Below, piece by piece: positions 55,126-64,000 of a stretch of DNA of 64,000 bases. The stretch comes from Crossiella sp. CA-258035 (GTDB taxonomy: Bacteria > Actinomycetota > Actinomycetes > Mycobacteriales > Pseudonocardiaceae). The stretch is from NCBI RefSeq assembly GCF_030064675.1, contig NZ_CP116413.1, positions 7,841,501 to 7,905,500 of the forward strand, read 5' to 3'. How positions within the stretch are numbered: the stretch's first letter is position 1; each line of letters begins with the position of its first letter. A program made the position numbers and the translations under genes. The notes under the pieces are model-generated. The model saw only the letters and a program-made list of their open reading frames with translations. It made no database searches and was not told where the DNA came from.

Positions 55126-55692
55126 ATGCGCAAGAACAAGCTGGTCCTGGCCGGTCTCGGCGTGCTCGCCGCGGTCGCGCTGACCGCCTGCGGGGGCGGC
55201 GAGCCCGCCGGGCACGGCCACACCTCGGCCACCGCCTCGGCCGCGCACAACGCGGCCGACGTCACCTTCGCCCAGGGCATGGTCCCGCACCACCAGCAGG
55301 CGCTGGAGATGAGCAAGCTGGCCCCCGGCCGCACCGAGAACGCCAGGGTGCTGGAGCTGGCCAAGCGGATCCAGGACGGGCAGCAGCCGGAGATCGACAA
55401 GATGACCGGCTGGCTGAAGTCGTGGAACGCCCCGGTCAAGAGCGAGCACGAGGGCCACGGCGCGCACGGGATGATGTCCGCCGAGCAGATGAACGAGCTG
55501 CTCGGGGCGCGCAAGGAGGACTTCGACCGGCGCTGGCTGACCATGATGGTCGAGCACCACCGGGGCGCGGTGGAGATGGCCAGGACCGAGCTGGCGCAGG
55601 GTCAGTCGGCCGAGGCCAAGCAGCTGGCGCAGGAGGTCGTCGCCGCGCAGGAGAAGGAGATCGCGGAGATGACCGGCCTGCTCAAGGGCTGA
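55126..55692 (+). CDS. DUF305 lipoprotein
   Basis: 188 residues. Lipobox LTACGGGE at about 20, then a DUF305 domain with MVPHHQQALEMSKL and MMVEHHRGAVEMARTEL. Likely copper-related by family. ATG 55126 follows AGAGGAGC. Second DUF305 gene in the window, here with a DUF6153-like partner. Its end overlaps the convergent signal peptidase gene by 11 bases. Confidence 0.93.
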   Translation: MRKNKLVLAGLGVLAAVALTACGGGEPAGHGHTSATASAAHNAADVTFAQGMVPHHQQALEMSKLAPGRTENARVLELAKRIQDGQQPEIDKMTGWLKSWNAPVKSEHEGHGAHGMMSAEQMNELLGARKEDFDRRWLTMMVEHHRGAVEMARTELAQGQSAEAKQLAQEVVAAQEKEIAEMTGLLKG

Positions 55693-56473
55693 GCGAACGC
55701 TGCCGTCGTCGGCGCCGCCAGGCCAGCGCGCCGACGACGGTCAGCCACAGCAGCGCGGCCGACGCCAGGGCCACCCCGGAGACGATGGCCCAGAACGCGT
55801 ACCGGTAGCCGTGGTCGGTCTCGGCCGCCCCGGCCAGCCCGGCGTCGGTGAACGCGCTGCTCGGCGAGACCTGCCGGACGCCGTCGCGGAAGACCGCGAC
55901 CACCACCGCCTTGATCGCATCGCGCGGCACGGTGCCCTTGAACTCGGTGTCCAGGAAGGCCCGCGAGTCGCGGGAGTTGCCGCGGTAGTCGCCGAGCACC
56001 AGCATCCGGTCCTGCGGCACCCGCACGGAGAACCGCGGCGGCTGGTACGGGCCGCCGGTGGCCGGGTCGTCGGTGCGCAGGTAGGGCTCGGTGATGGCGC
56101 GGCCGTTGACCTCCAGCCTGCCCTGGGCGTCGCAGCAGGTCACCGTGTCACCGCCGATGCCGACCACCCGCTTGACCAGCTGCTCGCCGCGTTCGGCCCC
56201 CGGCCAGCCCGCGCGGCCCGCGTCGAAGAGCACCACGTCGCCGCGCTGCACGGACGCGCCGCCGCCGGTGACCGGCCTGGTGATCGACTTGGTGCCCTGG
56301 GCCAGGGTGTTCTCCATCGCGGAGGTCTCCACCCGGAACGGCTCGTAGCGGTTGGCCAGCACGCCGACGCCGACGAAGGCCACCACCAGTCCCAGCGCCA
56401 CCGTCACCACCGGCACCAGCCAGGCGATCCGGCGGGTGCGGGCCGGCGCCGCCTCGTCCTCGGTGAGCGTCAT
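55682..56473 (-). CDS. lepB: Type I signal peptidase
   Basis: 263 residues. N-terminal anchor (about 16-42), catalytic Ser in ETSAMENTL (about 53), Lys in QLVKRVVGIGGDTV (about 100), box E-type GDYRGNSRDSR, and an additional C-terminal transmembrane helix (about 225-250). The nucleophile context SAM replaces SMxP of the canonical enzyme. Next to two LAxTG surface-protein genes. Confidence 0.92.
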   Translation of the reverse strand: MTLTEDEAAPARTRRIAWLVPVVTVALGLVVAFVGVGVLANRYEPFRVETSAMENTLAQGTKSITRPVTGGGASVQRGDVVLFDAGRAGWPGAERGEQLVKRVVGIGGDTVTCCDAQGRLEVNGRAITEPYLRTDDPATGGPYQPPRFSVRVPQDRMLVLGDYRGNSRDSRAFLDTEFKGTVPRDAIKAVVVAVFRDGVRQVSPSSAFTDAGLAGAAETDHGYRYAFWAIVSGVALASAALLWLTVVGALAWRRRRRQRSLSP

Positions 56474-56492: not shown

Positions 56493-57206
56493 TCAGCCGC
56501 GGCGACGGAGCAGGCGCGGCACGACCAGCGCCGCCGCGCCGAGCAGGATCAGCCCGGCCGCCAGCGGGATCAGCCAGCCGCCGTCGAAGCCGGTGGTGGC
56601 CAGGCCGGGGCCGGTGCTGCTGGTGACCACGGGCGGCGGGGTCGTGCTGGTGACCGGGGGCTGGCTCGTGGTCGACGAGGTGGTGGCGCCGGTCGGACGC
56701 GTGGTCGGCGTGGTGGTGCTCGTGGTCGTCTTCGTGGTCGTCGTGGTGGTGGTCGTCTTCGTGGTCGTGGTGGTCTGCGTGGTTGTCGTCGTGGTCTTGC
56801 TCCCGCAGGCGAACCAGTTGGTGGTCAGCGCGGGCTTCTGCGGCTGCGACGGCGACTCCAGTGGCGCGTGCAACCGTTCCCACGGCAGTCCGGTGAACGC
56901 GGACGCCGGATAGATGTTGTATCCGGGCCTGCCCTGGACCACGACCCCCGTGAGGGTGACACCGGGGTCCTTCGCGGTGACGGTGAGGTACCGGGGGTCC
57001 TTCGTCACGGTGACCTCGACCACCTCGCCCGCCAGCCCGACCGCCGCGCAGCCTGCGGCCACCCCGGCGACCGGGGTGGCCCGCTCGTCGCCGGACCAGG
57101 GGATCTGCGGGTCGGCCCCCACGCTGCCGGCCGCCCCGAGCCAGGTGGTGAGGACCACCGCGGCCAGGGCGAGGGCACGGCGGAAGACGGGTGCGGGGGC
57201 GTGCAT
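56493..57206 (-). CDS. Surface protein with Thr-rich stalk and LATTG sorting signal
   Basis: 237 residues. Signal peptide to about residue 32, globular part of about 90 residues with NWFACGSK, a Thr/Lys-rich stalk (about 138-195), then a sorting signal LATTGFDGG, hydrophobic helix and RRRG tail. LAxTG fits class E sortases. The paralog is at 57330-58022. ATG 57206 follows GGAG. Confidence 0.8.
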   Translation of the reverse strand: MHAPAPVFRRALALAAVVLTTWLGAAGSVGADPQIPWSGDERATPVAGVAAGCAAVGLAGEVVEVTVTKDPRYLTVTAKDPGVTLTGVVVQGRPGYNIYPASAFTGLPWERLHAPLESPSQPQKPALTTNWFACGSKTTTTTTQTTTTTKTTTTTTTTKTTTSTTTPTTRPTGATTSSTTSQPPVTSTTPPPVVTSSTGPGLATTGFDGGWLIPLAAGLILLGAAALVVPRLLRRRG

Positions 57207-57329
57207 CAGCGGGGGCTCCTGCTCAAGATGGGGAGGCTTGCATCCAACAGTCACATCGCCGCTGGCACAGCCCCCGCTACTGGCTCGTTAGCCGTTCGTT
57301 GTGTGCACGCCGTCGCGTCCCGGCCCGAT

Positions 57330-58022
57330 TCAGCGACCGGTCCGCGGCCGCCGCTTGGCCAGCGCCAGCGCCACGCCACCGGCCAGCAGCAGCACCGCGC
57401 CGAGCCCGAGCAGCCAGCCGTTGTCAAAGCCGGTGCTGGCCAGCTCGTCGTCGTGGGCCACCGGCACCGGGACCGGAGTGCTGGTGGGCGCGGTGGTGCG
57501 CGGCGTGGTGGCGAGGGTGGTGGTGGTCGTGCCGCGGCTGGTGGTGGAGGTGGTGGCACCGCCGGTGGTCGTGGTGGCGGTGCTGCTCTTGGTGGCCTTG
57601 GTGGTGCTCTTGGTGGTGGTCTGCCCGGTGCCGCAGGCGAACCAGTGGCTGATGTCGGGGACGTTGCCCTTCTGGCCGACCAGCGGGGAGTGCAGGCCGG
57701 GCCAGGGCAGCAGGCCGAGCGCGCCCGGCAGGTACACGTTGTGGTTGTCGCCGCCCTTGACCACGATGCCGGTCACCGTCACGCCGAGCGGGACCGCGGT
57801 GACGGTGAGGTGGCTGCCGCCGCTGATGTTCAGCGTCAGCTGGCCGCTGATCAGCTGACCGGGCAGGCCGGCCTGGGCGCAGGTGGTCGCGTTGCCGGGG
57901 TGCGCGGTGGCCCTCGGGTCGCCGGCGGAGGTGGCGGTCGGCTGGGCGGCGGCGGGGCCCGCCAGCCCGAGGCAGAGCAGCAGCGTCAGGGCGAGCAGAC
58001 GCGAGGGGGAGGGAAGACGCAT
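57330..58022 (-). CDS. Surface protein with Thr/Ser-rich stalk and LASTG sorting signal
   Basis: 230 residues. Signal peptide to about residue 26, globular part with HWFACGTG (as in the paralog), Thr/Ser-rich stalk (about 118-180), LASTGFDNG signal, hydrophobic helix and KRRPRTGR tail. Tandem paralog of 56493-57206. ATG 58022 follows GGAGCAG. Confidence 0.8.
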   Translation of the reverse strand: MRLPSPSRLLALTLLLCLGLAGPAAAQPTATSAGDPRATAHPGNATTCAQAGLPGQLISGQLTLNISGGSHLTVTAVPLGVTVTGIVVKGGDNHNVYLPGALGLLPWPGLHSPLVGQKGNVPDISHWFACGTGQTTTKSTTKATKSSTATTTTGGATTSTTSRGTTTTTLATTPRTTAPTSTPVPVPVAHDDELASTGFDNGWLLGLGAVLLLAGGVALALAKRRPRTGR

Positions 58023-58141
58023 GGCCACTGCTCCAGGTACGGGTCGGATCGGGGGCCTGATCCTGCGCCCCGCACCAGGCGTTCTGACCCGGTTGACCAC
58101 CAGCTCTTGGCCAGGTCGTGGCCGTTTCGTGGCAAATCCGG

Positions 58142-59742: not shown

Positions 59743-59828
59743 GACCGGAATACGCCGAACCGGCCCGGGTGGTTGCGCTCTCCCGGGCATCGGCCAAGCA
59801 CTGGGTGAGCGAACCTCTGGGGAAAGGC

Positions 59829-60563
59829 GTGGGGACTGTGGGCGTGCGTGGGCGGCACCTGATCGGGGCGTTGCTGGCGGCGGCGGTCGGCGGGACGGGC
59901 GTGGCGGCCTGCACCGTGCTGACCCCGCCGGGTGTGCGGGCGCAGGTGGTCACCGTGCGAGCGCAGGCCGCGCCGGTGCCGGTGGCCGAGGTCAAGCCGG
60001 AACCGCCCTCGGTGCGGCAGGCGCAGCAGGTGCTGCACGAGCACGGCTACCAGGTGCGCGCGGTGACCGGCGAGCTGGACAGCGAGACCAGGCACGCGCT
60101 GATCGCCTTCCAGAAGGTGCACGGCCTGGCGCGGACCGGGCAGGTGGACGAGGCCACCGCGGCCGCGCTGCGCAACCCGGTGCGGCCGGTGGCCCAGGCT
60201 CGCAGGGGGTTCCGGGTGGAGGTGGACCTGGCCAGGCAGGTCACCTACTTCCTGGACGAGGCGGGCCAGGTGGCGCGGATCTACGACTCCTCGACCGGCC
60301 GCGACCAGCCCGGCAAGCACACCCCAACGGGCGAGTTCACCGTCACCCGGCAGATCGACGGCTGGCGCTACGCCAGGCTCGGCCCGATGTGGCGGCCCTC
60401 CTACATCGGCCAGGGCGGCAGCGACCAGGGCATCGCCTTCCACGGCGGCGAACCGGTGGAGAACTGGCCGGCCAGCAACGGGTGCATCCGGCTGACCGAC
60501 CCGAGCGTGAACGAGACGTTCGCGTTGCTGCGACCGGGAACCAAGGTGCTCGTGCATCCGTGA
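59829..60563 (+). CDS. L,D-transpeptidase (YkuD) with peptidoglycan-binding domain
   Basis: 244 residues. N-terminal hydrophobic segment with a Cys (VAACTVL), PG_binding_1 domain (about 60-120) with VRAVTGELDSETRHALIAF, and a YkuD domain with HGGEPV and catalytic SNGCIRLTD (about 217). Cross-links peptidoglycan by 3-3 bonds. GTG 59829 follows GGGGAAAGG; other GTGs are in frame. Confidence 0.88.
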   Translation: MGTVGVRGRHLIGALLAAAVGGTGVAACTVLTPPGVRAQVVTVRAQAAPVPVAEVKPEPPSVRQAQQVLHEHGYQVRAVTGELDSETRHALIAFQKVHGLARTGQVDEATAAALRNPVRPVAQARRGFRVEVDLARQVTYFLDEAGQVARIYDSSTGRDQPGKHTPTGEFTVTRQIDGWRYARLGPMWRPSYIGQGGSDQGIAFHGGEPVENWPASNGCIRLTDPSVNETFALLRPGTKVLVHP

Positions 60564-60677
60564 GTTCAGCCACGACAGGGTGGCCAACCGTGCGGTTGTT
60601 CACTTTTCCTGGGTATGGTGTCCGTTTGGCGTTGGCCTGTCCGGCGTTGAGACACCTACTCCCCGGAAGGGCCGGAG

Positions 60678-63600
60678 TTGACCGCAGTCGACGAGTCCTT
60701 GCTCACCACTCCCACGATTCCCTTGGCGCCAGCGGTTTTCCGCGCGGGCGCCACCCCGGCTGAGCGAACTCTGCTCGACATCCTGGCAGCCACCGCACGA
60801 CGCTTCCCCACCGCCCCCGCGGTGGACGACGGCAGCACCGTGCTGACCTACCGCGCCCTGCTCGGCGAGGTCGAGTCGGTGCGCGAACGCCTTGCCGCGC
60901 ACGGCATCGGCCGCGGCGACCGGGTCGGCATCCGGATTCCTTCGGGCACCAACGAGCTGTACGTCGGCATCCTGGGCGTGCTGGCCGCGGGCGCGGCCTA
61001 CGTGCCGGTGGACGCGGAGGATCCGGACGAACGGGCCGAACTGGTCTTCGGCGAGGCCGCGGTGTGCGCGGTGCTGGGCGCGGACGGCGAGCTGACGGCG
61101 CACGCCACGCCGGGCGGTTCGGTGGGTTCGCCGACCCTGGACGACGACGCGTGGATCATCTTCACCTCCGGTTCCACCGGCAAGCCCAAGGGTGTCGCGG
61201 TCAGCCACCGCAGCGCGGCCGCGTTCGTGGACGCCGAGGCCGGGCTGTTCCTGGTGGACGAGCCGATCGGGCCCGGCGACCGGGTGCTGGCCGGGTTGTC
61301 GGTGGCCTTCGACGCCTCCTGCGAGGAGATGTGGCTGGCCTGGCGGCACGGGGCCTGCCTGGTCGCCGCGCCGCGCTCGCTGGTGCGCACCGGCATGGAC
61401 CTGGGGCCGTGGCTGGTGCGGCAGGAGATCACTGTGGTCTCCACCGTGCCCACGCTGGCCGCGCTGTGGCCAGCCGAGTGCCTCGACGACGTGCGGCTGC
61501 TCATCTTCGGCGGCGAGGCCTGCCCGCCGGAGCTGGCCGAGCGGGTCGCGGTGGAGGGCCGGGAGGTCTGGAACACCTACGGGCCGACCGAGGCCACCGT
61601 GGTCGCCTGCGCCGCGCCGCTGACCGGCACCCCGCCGGTGCGGATCGGCCTGCCGCTGGACGGCTGGGAGCTGGCCGTGGTGGACGCCGCGGGCCAGGTG
61701 GTCGCGATGGGCGAGACCGGCGAGCTGGTGATCGGCGGCGTCGGGCTGGCCAGGTACCTGGACCCGGTCAAGGACGCGGAGAAGTACGCGCCGCTGCCCG
61801 CGCTGGGCTGGGACCGCGCCTACCGCAGCGGCGACCTGGTGCAGGCCGAGCCGGAGGGACTGCTGTTCCTCGGGCGGGCCGACGAGCAGGTGAAGCTGGG
61901 CGGGCGGCGGATCGAGCTGGGCGAGGTGGACGCGGCCCTGCAAGCCCTGCCGGGAGTCGCCGGTGCCGCCGCGGCGGTGCGCTCGACCAAGGGCGGCAAC
62001 CAGATCCTGGTCGGCTACCTCGCGCTTTCGTCCACTGTGGACACTTTCGACAAGGCCGCCGCGCTGGACCGGTTGCGGGCCGCGCTGCCCTCGGCGCTGG
62101 TGCCGCTGCTGGCCGTGGTGGACACCCTGCCCACCCGCACCTCCGGCAAGGTCGACCGCAACGCGCTGCCCTGGCCGCTGAGCACCGAGGAGCTGCCCGG
62201 CGACGCGCCGCAGCTCTCCGGCACGCAGGCCTGGCTGGCCGAGCAGTGGACCGAGATCCTCGGCCTGCCGCCGGGGTCCGCGGACGCCGACTTCTTCGCC
62301 AGCGGCGGCGGCAGCCTGGCCGCCGCGCAGCTGATCTCGCTGGTCCGCCGGACCTACCCGGGCTCCTCGGTGAGCGACCTGTACGCGCACTCCACCCTGG
62401 CCGCGCTGGCCGCGCGGCTGGACGAGCTGGGCGCGGCCGAGGCCACCGTGCGCGAGGTCGCGCCCACCCCGCGCCGGGCCGCGCTGGTGCAGCTGCTGGC
62501 GCTGCTGCCGATGCTGACCCTGGTCGGGCTGCGCTGGATCGTCGCGCTGGCCGCGCTGAACAACGTGCTCAACCTCTTCGGCTCCTTCACCTGGGCCCCC
62601 ACCATCTCCTGGTGGTGGGTCGGCGCGGGCGCGGCGCTGCTGTTCAGCCCGCCCGGCCGGATCGCCATCGCCGCCGGTGGCGCGCGGATCCTGTTGCGCG
62701 GCCTGCGTCCGGGCAGCTACCCGCGCGGCGGCAGCGTGCACCTGCGGCTGTGGGCGGCCGAGCGGCTGGCCGTGCTCAGCGGCGCGGCCAAGCTCTCCGG
62801 CGGCTGGATCTCCAGCTACGCCAAGGCCCTCGGCGCGCGGATCGGTCCGGACGTGGACCTGCACGCCGCTCCCCCGGTGACCGGGATGCTCAAGCTGGGC
62901 AAGGGTTGCGCGATCGAGCCCGAGGTCGACCTGGCCGGACACTGGCTGGACGGCGACGTGGTGCACGTGGGCCGGATCCGGATCGGCGCGGGCGCGGTGG
63001 TCGGCTCGCGCAGCACGGTCTTCCCCGGCGCGCGGATCGGCAAGCGGGCCGAGATCGCGGCCGGTTCGGTGGTGCGCGGTTCCGTTCCGGCGGGCCAGGT
63101 CTGGTCCGGCGTGCCCGCCGCGCGGATCAGCAAGACCAGCAGCAAGCGGCTGAACAAGACCGCGCCGCGCAGCCGGTTCTGGTCCTTCCTCTACGGCATC
63201 AGCTCGCTCGGCCTGGACCTGCTGCCGGTGCTGGCCGCGCTGCCCGCGATCGCGCTGCTGGGCTGGTTCGTCGCCGGCGACAGCACGCTGACCGGGGCGG
63301 TGGGCAGCGCGCTGCTGGCCGCGCCACTGGCCGCGATCGCCTACCTGGCCACGACCGCGCTGTTCGTGCTCGCCGGGGTGCGGCTGTTCAGCATCGGCCT
63401 GCGCGCCGGGTACCACCCGCTGCACGGGCGGATCGCCTGGCAGGCGTGGACCGTGGAGCGGCTGATGAACCACTCCAGGGCGGCGCTGTTCCCGTTGTAC
63501 GCCAGTCTGTTCACCCCGGTCTGGCTGCGCCTGCTGGGCATGAAGGTGGGCCGCCGGGTGGAGGCATCCACCGTGCTCGCGCTGCCCTCGCTGACCACGG

Positions 63601-64000
63601 TGGCCGACGGCGCGTTCCTGGCCGACGACACCATGGTCGGCAGCTACGAGCTGGGCGGCGGCTGGCTGCGCATCGACGAGGTGCGCATCGGCAAGCGCGC
63701 CTTCCTGGGCAACTCCGGCATGACCGCGCCCGGCCGCTCGGTGCCCAACCGCGGCCTGGTCGGCGTGCTCTCCGCCGCGCCCAAGCGGGCCAAGGCGGGC
63801 AGCTCCTACCTGGGCATGCCGCCGATCAAGCTGCCGCGCAACACCGAGAAGAGCGACGAGGGCCGCACCTTCGCCCCGCCGCGCCGTCTGGTGCTGGCGC
63901 GGGGCCTGGTCGAGCTGTGCCGGGTGATTCCGGTGATGTGCACGGTCGCGCTGGCCGTGCTGACCCTGGCCGCCTTCGAGGTCATCGCCGCGCAGGCCGG
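60678..64000 (+). CDS. Membrane NRPS-like polymer synthetase (Pls/poly-epsilon-lysine synthetase type), C-terminus beyond window
   Basis: 1107 codons are visible from TTG 60678 (AAGG nearby). Adenylation domain about 30-500: FTSGSTGKPKG (A3), FDASCEEMW (A4), NTYGPTEATV (A5), YRSGDL (A7), TSGKVDR (A10). A carrier domain follows with Ser in SGGGSLAAAQ near 545. Then transmembrane helices (about 600-660), a left-handed beta-helix-like soluble part (about 715-815), more helices (about 835-920), a second hexapeptide-type part (about 960-1060) and a last helix. This is the architecture of Streptomyces albulus Pls, which joins L-lysine through epsilon-amines. The by-eye specificity code is DAESIGTVVK. 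Confidence 0.85.
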   Translation, partial: MTAVDESLLTTPTIPLAPAVFRAGATPAERTLLDILAATARRFPTAPAVDDGSTVLTYRALLGEVESVRERLAAHGIGRGDRVGIRIPSGTNELYVGILGVLAAGAAYVPVDAEDPDERAELVFGEAAVCAVLGADGELTAHATPGGSVGSPTLDDDAWIIFTSGSTGKPKGVAVSHRSAAAFVDAEAGLFLVDEPIGPGDRVLAGLSVAFDASCEEMWLAWRHGACLVAAPRSLVRTGMDLGPWLVRQEITVVSTVPTLAALWPAECLDDVRLLIFGGEACPPELAERVAVEGREVWNTYGPTEATVVACAAPLTGTPPVRIGLPLDGWELAVVDAAGQVVAMGETGELVIGGVGLARYLDPVKDAEKYAPLPALGWDRAYRSGDLVQAEPEGLLFLGRADEQVKLGGRRIELGEVDAALQALPGVAGAAAAVRSTKGGNQILVGYLALSSTVDTFDKAAALDRLRAALPSALVPLLAVVDTLPTRTSGKVDRNALPWPLSTEELPGDAPQLSGTQAWLAEQWTEILGLPPGSADADFFASGGGSLAAAQLISLVRRTYPGSSVSDLYAHSTLAALAARLDELGAAEATVREVAPTPRRAALVQLLALLPMLTLVGLRWIVALAALNNVLNLFGSFTWAPTISWWWVGAGAALLFSPPGRIAIAAGGARILLRGLRPGSYPRGGSVHLRLWAAERLAVLSGAAKLSGGWISSYAKALGARIGPDVDLHAAPPVTGMLKLGKGCAIEPEVDLAGHWLDGDVVHVGRIRIGAGAVVGSRSTVFPGARIGKRAEIAAGSVVRGSVPAGQVWSGVPAARISKTSSKRLNKTAPRSRFWSFLYGISSLGLDLLPVLAALPAIALLGWFVAGDSTLTGAVGSALLAAPLAAIAYLATTALFVLAGVRLFSIGLRAGYHPLHGRIAWQAWTVERLMNHSRAALFPLYASLFTPVWLRLLGMKVGRRVEASTVLALPSLTTVADGAFLADDTMVGSYELGGGWLRIDEVRIGKRAFLGNSGMTAPGRSVPNRGLVGVLSAAPKRAKAGSSYLGMPPIKLPRNTEKSDEGRTFAPPRRLVLARGLVELCRVIPVMCTVALAVLTLAAFEVIAAQA

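Follow-up and report, generated by a model that had tools for sequence, protein, structure and literature searches.

The last gene of the DNA analysed here very probably encodes an epsilon-poly-L-lysine synthetase (Pls), as judged from its own sequence and those of its relatives. The window, by which the whole stretch of 64,000 nucleotides is meant (G000:C1:7841501-7905500, G000 being the source genome, a single contig of 9.17 Mb), ends within this pls-like gene: the frame opening with a TTG codon at 60678 on the plus strand is still open at 63998, so that the window holds residues 1-1107. In the adjoining stretch of the same genome, the stop is reached at L013:8077, equivalent to 64577 on the window scale, giving a completed protein of 1299 amino acids and confirming that the gene suspected at the window end in a preliminary description, made from the letters of the window, is real. 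The TTG start codon is the program's choice and the true start may differ. The Pls-like character proposed in that description is supported by a match to the family model TIGR02353, a specificity code identical to that of a Pls adenylation domain, a protein free of condensation and thioesterase domain matches, and a neighbouring gene for an M1 peptidase. The coordinates of all features are collected in Table 1.

Searches with Pfam models on the 1299-residue protein returned an AMP-binding domain (2.2e-60), a carrier domain (5.6e-11), and hexapeptide repeats, while the NCBIfam model TIGR02353, "Pls/PosA family non-ribosomal peptide synthetase", matched residues 604-1288 with 765.9 bits against a cut-off of 423.1 (3.7e-230). 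No Pfam or NCBIfam match to a condensation or thioesterase domain was obtained anywhere in the completed protein; the view that this is a non-ribosomal peptide synthetase (NRPS) lacking both, initially formed on the truncated frame, thus holds for the downstream part as well. Among 177,635 distinct sequences of the Protein Data Bank (PDB), the top match of the adenylation domain was the "Epsilon-poly-L-lysine synthase" adenylation domain 7WEW (1.7e-201), which we take to be from the S. albulus enzyme and which belongs to the same family model. The two domains are 68% identical, and the ten code residues (D212, A213, E216, S255, I276, G278, T300, V308, V309, and K491) agree at 10/10 positions, so that every residue of the code previously read by eye proved correct.

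The spacing of the code was checked against the published residues of PosA, the delta-poly-L-ornithine synthetase (PDB 8G95-8G98), and not against PheA, and it fits with one 1-residue shift; the PosA pocket is given as D217, M218, E221, H260, N280, T304, V312, and S313 (PMC10522769). PosA shares the architecture of the present protein and has its pocket Glu at the same position, but differs in its published code, D M E H N G T V S K, and in its single-gene operon. The same source describes lysine-activating members as having Ala where PosA has Met and the poly-diaminopropionate (PDAP) synthetase has Phe. The synthetases of poly-diaminobutyrate and poly-diaminopropionate are likewise of the same architecture, the PDAP enzyme carrying its Phe at code position 2 (PMC10522769). 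Here, this position is filled by Ala213, and the Met or Phe signature of the poly-ornithine and PDAP enzymes is absent.

Directly downstream lies the M1 peptidase gene, whose GTG start codon sits inside the pls stop (GTGA) with an overlap of 4 bp. Its product of 429 amino acids contains Peptidase_M1_N (PF17900) and Peptidase_M1 (PF01433) with the zinc motif HELAHQ...E, and is 49% identical to the product of the gene in the same position beside the pls of L191, a locus from the Streptomyces search. A poly-lysine hydrolase gene had been suggested at the outset as something to look for, and this peptidase is a good candidate. In S. albulus, pldII is reported to encode the major enzyme degrading epsilon-poly-L-lysine (epsilon-PL) and to be translationally coupled to the adjacent pls (PMC9223678), and the pairing of pls with a peptidase is described as unlike the context of three other isopeptide synthetases (PMC8117764). 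Translation of the present peptidase is probably coupled to that of pls as well, and the enzyme would cut the polymer and thereby shield the cell, as reported for PldII. Full-length loci resembling 7WEW, L191 among them, share the architecture found here, and most of them adjoin an M1 peptidase gene; the overlap of 4 bp here contrasts with a peptidase match beginning 80-124 bases after pls in those of them that have one, where the true start may be nearer.

The association between peptidase and code was examined in 60 related genomes, from which all matches above the family cut-off and three just below it gave 51 flanked loci; with two loci from the own genome, the set comprised 53 loci, and a peptidase was counted if it lay on the same strand within 400 bases. 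Lysine-coded loci (DAES[IV]GTVVK) numbered 31, the other 22 including one unreadable and one incomplete code. An M1 peptidase neighbour was found in 27 of the 31, as opposed to none of the 22; weak M1 matches in two other-coded loci (L168 and L170) lay away from the synthetase. The code and the peptidase also occurred together in all 80 of the best named loci, which had been picked by similarity and by peptide patterns covering part of the code region, and a peptidase was present in 15 of 17 chosen Streptomyces loci. In this part of the tree, peptidase and lysine code are thus strongly linked; elsewhere the link is weak.

A quick tree was built from 94 rows (52 of the 53 loci of the neighbour test, the 17 Streptomyces loci, and 25 of the 80 named loci); rows outside the lysine clade drew long-branch warnings. 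All lysine-coded members, including this gene, form one clade of 73 rows with a support of 100, and the other codes fall outside it. Within it, the loci resembling 7WEW make up a clade of 12 rows (support 100), all 12 from the Streptomyces search, and its sister is a broad clade of 58 rows (support 100) that contains this gene and takes in Pseudonocardiaceae, Nocardiaceae, Micromonosporaceae, Kribbella, Streptosporangium, Kitasatospora, and Streptomyces. The five Streptomyces genomes with two fetched copies (G305, G317, G388, G424, and G452) each have one copy of either type. The Pls anchor of the tree consists of loci with an adenylation domain up to 93% identical to 7WEW, not of the deposited full-length Pls; L191, at 93% the best of 392 Streptomyces genomes, is 57% identical to the present protein over the full length. 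The closest named ortholog is L021 from Crossiella sp. SN42, at 98% identity.

A further point of comparison is the Pls of C. variabile, which has the Pls architecture and a reported peptidase neighbour, makes epsilon-PL when expressed in S. coelicolor, and is 51% identical to Streptomyces Pls, all as reported (PMC8117764); the comparison made here is with these published features. Since the identity of 57% to L191 exceeds the 51% separating a tested enzyme from Streptomyces Pls, it counts in favour of a Pls function. None of 11 Corynebacterium-type loci could be assigned to C. variabile; these loci are 47-51% identical to L191 and lie outside the rows of the tree.

Several observations weigh against a Pls function or loosen the argument for it. 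The gene differs from Pls (7WEW) in belonging to a separate, broader clade of the lysine-coded group, sister to the 7WEW-like one, into which no named and experimentally tested member was placed. The peptidase is missing from 4 of the 31 lysine-coded loci (L143, at a contig end with a partial match, and L166, L167, and L180) and from 2 of the 17 Streptomyces loci, and was detected in only 1 of the 11 Corynebacterium-type loci although all are lysine-coded, in a tblastn search at 1e-10 that a diverged peptidase would escape. By eye, no signal peptide can be made out in the M1 peptidase, whose hydropathy profile has no more than a weak peak; PldII is reported outside the membrane (PMC9223678). 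The code, taken on its own, would also be compatible with ornithine, which PosA, with a related code, is reported to prefer (PMC10522769), and C. variabile itself is reported to have had no detectable epsilon-PL in culture (PMC8117764).

It is nevertheless very unlikely that this is an enzyme of the same architecture and family polymerising ornithine, diaminobutyrate, or diaminopropionate, or using arginine. The family does hold enzymes for such substrates (PMC10522769), and paralogs in Pseudonocardiaceae carry the codes DFECLSVVTK, DFEYLGTVTK, and DSECYGGVTK. Set against these are the complete agreement with the 7WEW code and the Ala213 in place of the Met or Phe described above; moreover, the other codes branch separately, none of their 22 loci has an adjacent M1 gene, and several stand beside a class III aminotransferase gene. 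The Phe-coded paralogs of this sample show just this arrangement, with no adjacent M1 gene and several aminotransferase neighbours. Still less credible, to the point of being negligible, is a fragment of a conventional NRPS or a carrier-loading enzyme supplying lysine to a separate assembly line. AMP-binding matches number 78 in the whole genome, but the nearest others lie about 42 kb downstream and about 62 kb upstream; the alignment with TIGR02353 runs from end to end through the C-terminal 685 residues, and neither a condensation nor a thioesterase domain is matched.

The remaining alternative is compatible with a Pls function and concerns its use: the gene may be capable of making epsilon-PL and yet be mainly silent, or may make small amounts for an envelope or stress role and not as a secreted antibiotic, a serious prospect rated somewhat below an even chance. 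The family was above cut-off in 35 of the 60 relatives, in 128 of 298 genomes sampled across the order, and in 182 of 242 genomes of the genus of G639, presumably Corynebacterium; matches to the 7WEW domain at E <= 1e-150 occurred in 167 of 392 Streptomyces genomes, the controls were above cut-off in 1 of 14 genomes (C. glutamicum), and other families sampled in two rounds gave five genomes with the Pls/PosA family and two without. Such frequencies, in Streptomyces and in the order, and the synthetase-peptidase pair in all of the best named loci favour this alternative, although a wide distribution by itself is no proof of a housekeeping role. The reported lack of detectable product in C. variabile (PMC8117764) likewise implies that the gene here may be silent. 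A search of the literature at hand for Crossiella and "poly-L-lysine synthetase" found no paper. Clusters for epsilon-PL are listed in genome papers for Amycolatopsis (PMC11004387) and for Kitasatospora setae (PMC11117518), and the novelty of the gene is therefore low, the family being common and such clusters having been predicted in print already.

As a Pls, the protein would activate L-lysine with ATP by its adenylation domain, load it onto Ser546 of the carrier domain, and have its membrane-bound C-terminal part, three beta-helices on six helices, repeatedly join the alpha-carboxyl group to the epsilon-amine of the next lysine; polymerisation would proceed without condensation or thioesterase domains. 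For the C-terminal part, an AlphaFold2 model was made of the last 714 residues of the ortholog L021 from an alignment of 25 rows (mean predicted local distance difference test, pLDDT, 82.3; predicted template modelling score, pTM, 0.85). The model shows three pairs of long helices and three runs of short beta-helix strands, so that the adenylation and carrier domains (A-T) are predicted to precede six membrane helices and three C domains in tandem. The adenylation, carrier, and membrane order of the preliminary description therefore stands, and its two beta-helix parts become three, C3 having escaped notice because it falls outside the window. In a Foldseek search with the L021 model, the top PDB matches were hexapeptide-repeat acetyltransferases, each spanning one part only, with template modelling scores of 0.08-0.17 by query length for the listed matches; a profile of 25 C-terminal domains gave no match at 1e-6 against solved sequences.

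Within C3, H1227 is the sole histidine after residue 510 that is kept in all 160 aligned rows, and Q1225 and D1231 are invariant too (140 lysine-coded and 20 other rows, with the own protein entered twice, some genomes occurring in two sets, and L139 and L168 excluded). A phmmer comparison of C3 with the hexapeptide O-acetyltransferase 3FTT (E 9.9e-5) places H1227 on the His of "TATH", presumably the catalytic base of that O-acetyltransferase family. It is conceivable, at odds we put a little short of even, that the polymerising part has a single active site in C3, where H1227, with Q1225 and D1231, would act as the base letting the epsilon-amine attack the carrier thioester, while C1 and C2 would serve a structural purpose or act in handling the chain; the role of H1227 as that base is the most speculative part of the proposed mechanism. 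No published catalytic histidine was found in the literature search, as far as the sources could be consulted; Kito et al. (2013), cited in PMC8949500 and reportedly a mutational study of the three tandem domains, may bear on H1227 and may already hold the idea.

Table 1. Features of the pls-like gene and its surroundings, in window positions unless stated otherwise.
Feature	Position	Strand	Remarks
L,D-transpeptidase (YkuD and peptidoglycan-binding domain)	59769..60563	+	neighbour, outside the system
Terminator-like hairpin with T-rich tail, between L,D-transpeptidase gene and pls	60578..60601	+	consensus match only
pls-like gene, residues 1-1107 of 1299	60678..64000	+	TTG start; full span G000:C1:7902178-7906077
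Adenylation core	60786..61754	+	PF00501, residues 37-359; 7WEW match covers residues 17-502
Ten specificity residues, code DAESIGTVVK	61311..62150	+	identical to 7WEW 10/10
Carrier domain	62232..62420	+	PF00550, residues 519-581
Ser546, expected phosphopantetheine site	62313-62315	+	invariant across family alignment
Membrane helix pair 1 (residues 599-631, 645-672)	62472..62693	+	L021 model; hydropathy peak 606-624
C1, predicted beta-helix part 1 (about residues 738-816)	62889..63125	+	Hexapep 767-801; L021 model
Membrane helix pair 2 (residues 833-865, 871-905)	63174..63392	+	hydropathy; L021 model
C2, predicted beta-helix part 2 (about residues 973-1028)	63594..63761	+	L021 model
Membrane pair 3, helix 1 (residues 1083-1107)	63924..63998	+	hydropathy; L021 model
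Membrane pair 3, helix 2 (1116-1138) and C3 (about 1210-1285)	beyond window end	+	alignment, hydropathy, L021 model
M1 peptidase gene, outside window	window-scale 64574-65863; G000:C1:7906074-7907363	+	4-bp overlap with pls

The genes on either side of the synthetase-peptidase pair appear to be bystanders. The terminator-like hairpin upstream of pls was represented by 2 overlapping matches, as against 0.2 expected from shuffles. One of the 80 named loci has a homolog of the L,D-transpeptidase near pls, as do 3 of the 51 loci from relatives. All four belong to Crossiella or the same genus, in which conservation extends to the other flanking genes tested; the early judgement that this gene is unlikely to be related to pls by function agrees with these counts. 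Downstream, at L013:9636-10439 (66136-66939 on the window scale, outside the window), lies a gene whose product belongs to the poly-gamma-glutamate hydrolase family (PF05908) and carries what looks by eye like a Tat signal. Four genomes of the genus (G000-G003) each yielded a single copy of this gene, always downstream of the pls-M1 pair. The neighbouring sigma factor and glyoxalase-like genes are kept in 5/5 compared loci and two-component genes in all four compared loci whose stretch extends to them, whereas a search of the 80 named loci, several of which have short flanks, detected neither the L,D-transpeptidase nor the PF05908 gene close to pls in 79 of them. Both genes were thus rejected as parts of the system, since the genes around them are conserved in the genus too and the two themselves are rare beside pls in the named loci, and the position of the PF05908 gene is probably genus synteny. 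Farther upstream, two frames on the minus strand (56493-57254 and 57330-58100) have translations that, judged by eye, look secreted, contain long runs of Thr and end in a hydrophobic anchor; they are adjoined by a signal peptidase-like frame (55682-56473, minus strand, by eye).

Elsewhere in the tree, five lysine-coded synthetases stand without an adjoining M1 peptidase (L166, L167, L180, L202, and L204): the first three branch off basally within the broad half of the lysine clade, L204 does so within the 7WEW-like half, and L202 is nested in the latter. The own genome also encodes a second synthetase of the Pls/PosA family (G000:C1:7241390-7245424; L019:9390-13424; 728.8 bits) with the code DFECLSVVTK, preceded by a class III aminotransferase gene. 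It may belong with the synthetases of poly-diaminobutyrate or poly-diaminopropionate, in which case the strain may make two cationic polymers; any cationic polymer of the strain could therefore come from either gene. Before the aminotransferase gene, L019:7139-8011 encodes a shortened adenylation domain of 290 amino acids from which, judged by eye, the usual ATP-binding loop has been lost, and a 58% identical copy exists in a genome of the same genus (L165:10345-11145, minus strand); is this a retained pseudo-enzyme or a regulator? The code DSECYGGVTK was met in paralogs L181, L182, and L183 from three genomes of the same family (G010, G019, and G021), and is the one given for a Bdellovibrionales homolog with reported modest activity on arginine (PMC10522769).

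Epsilon-polylysine is a commercial natural food preservative, and the present analysis adds a well-supported pls gene from Crossiella or close kin, a genus that has seldom been studied. In the sampled relatives, the pair of synthetase and peptidase goes with the lysine code, and the conserved histidine of C3 would offer a one-mutation test of how condensation-free enzymes form isopeptide bonds.

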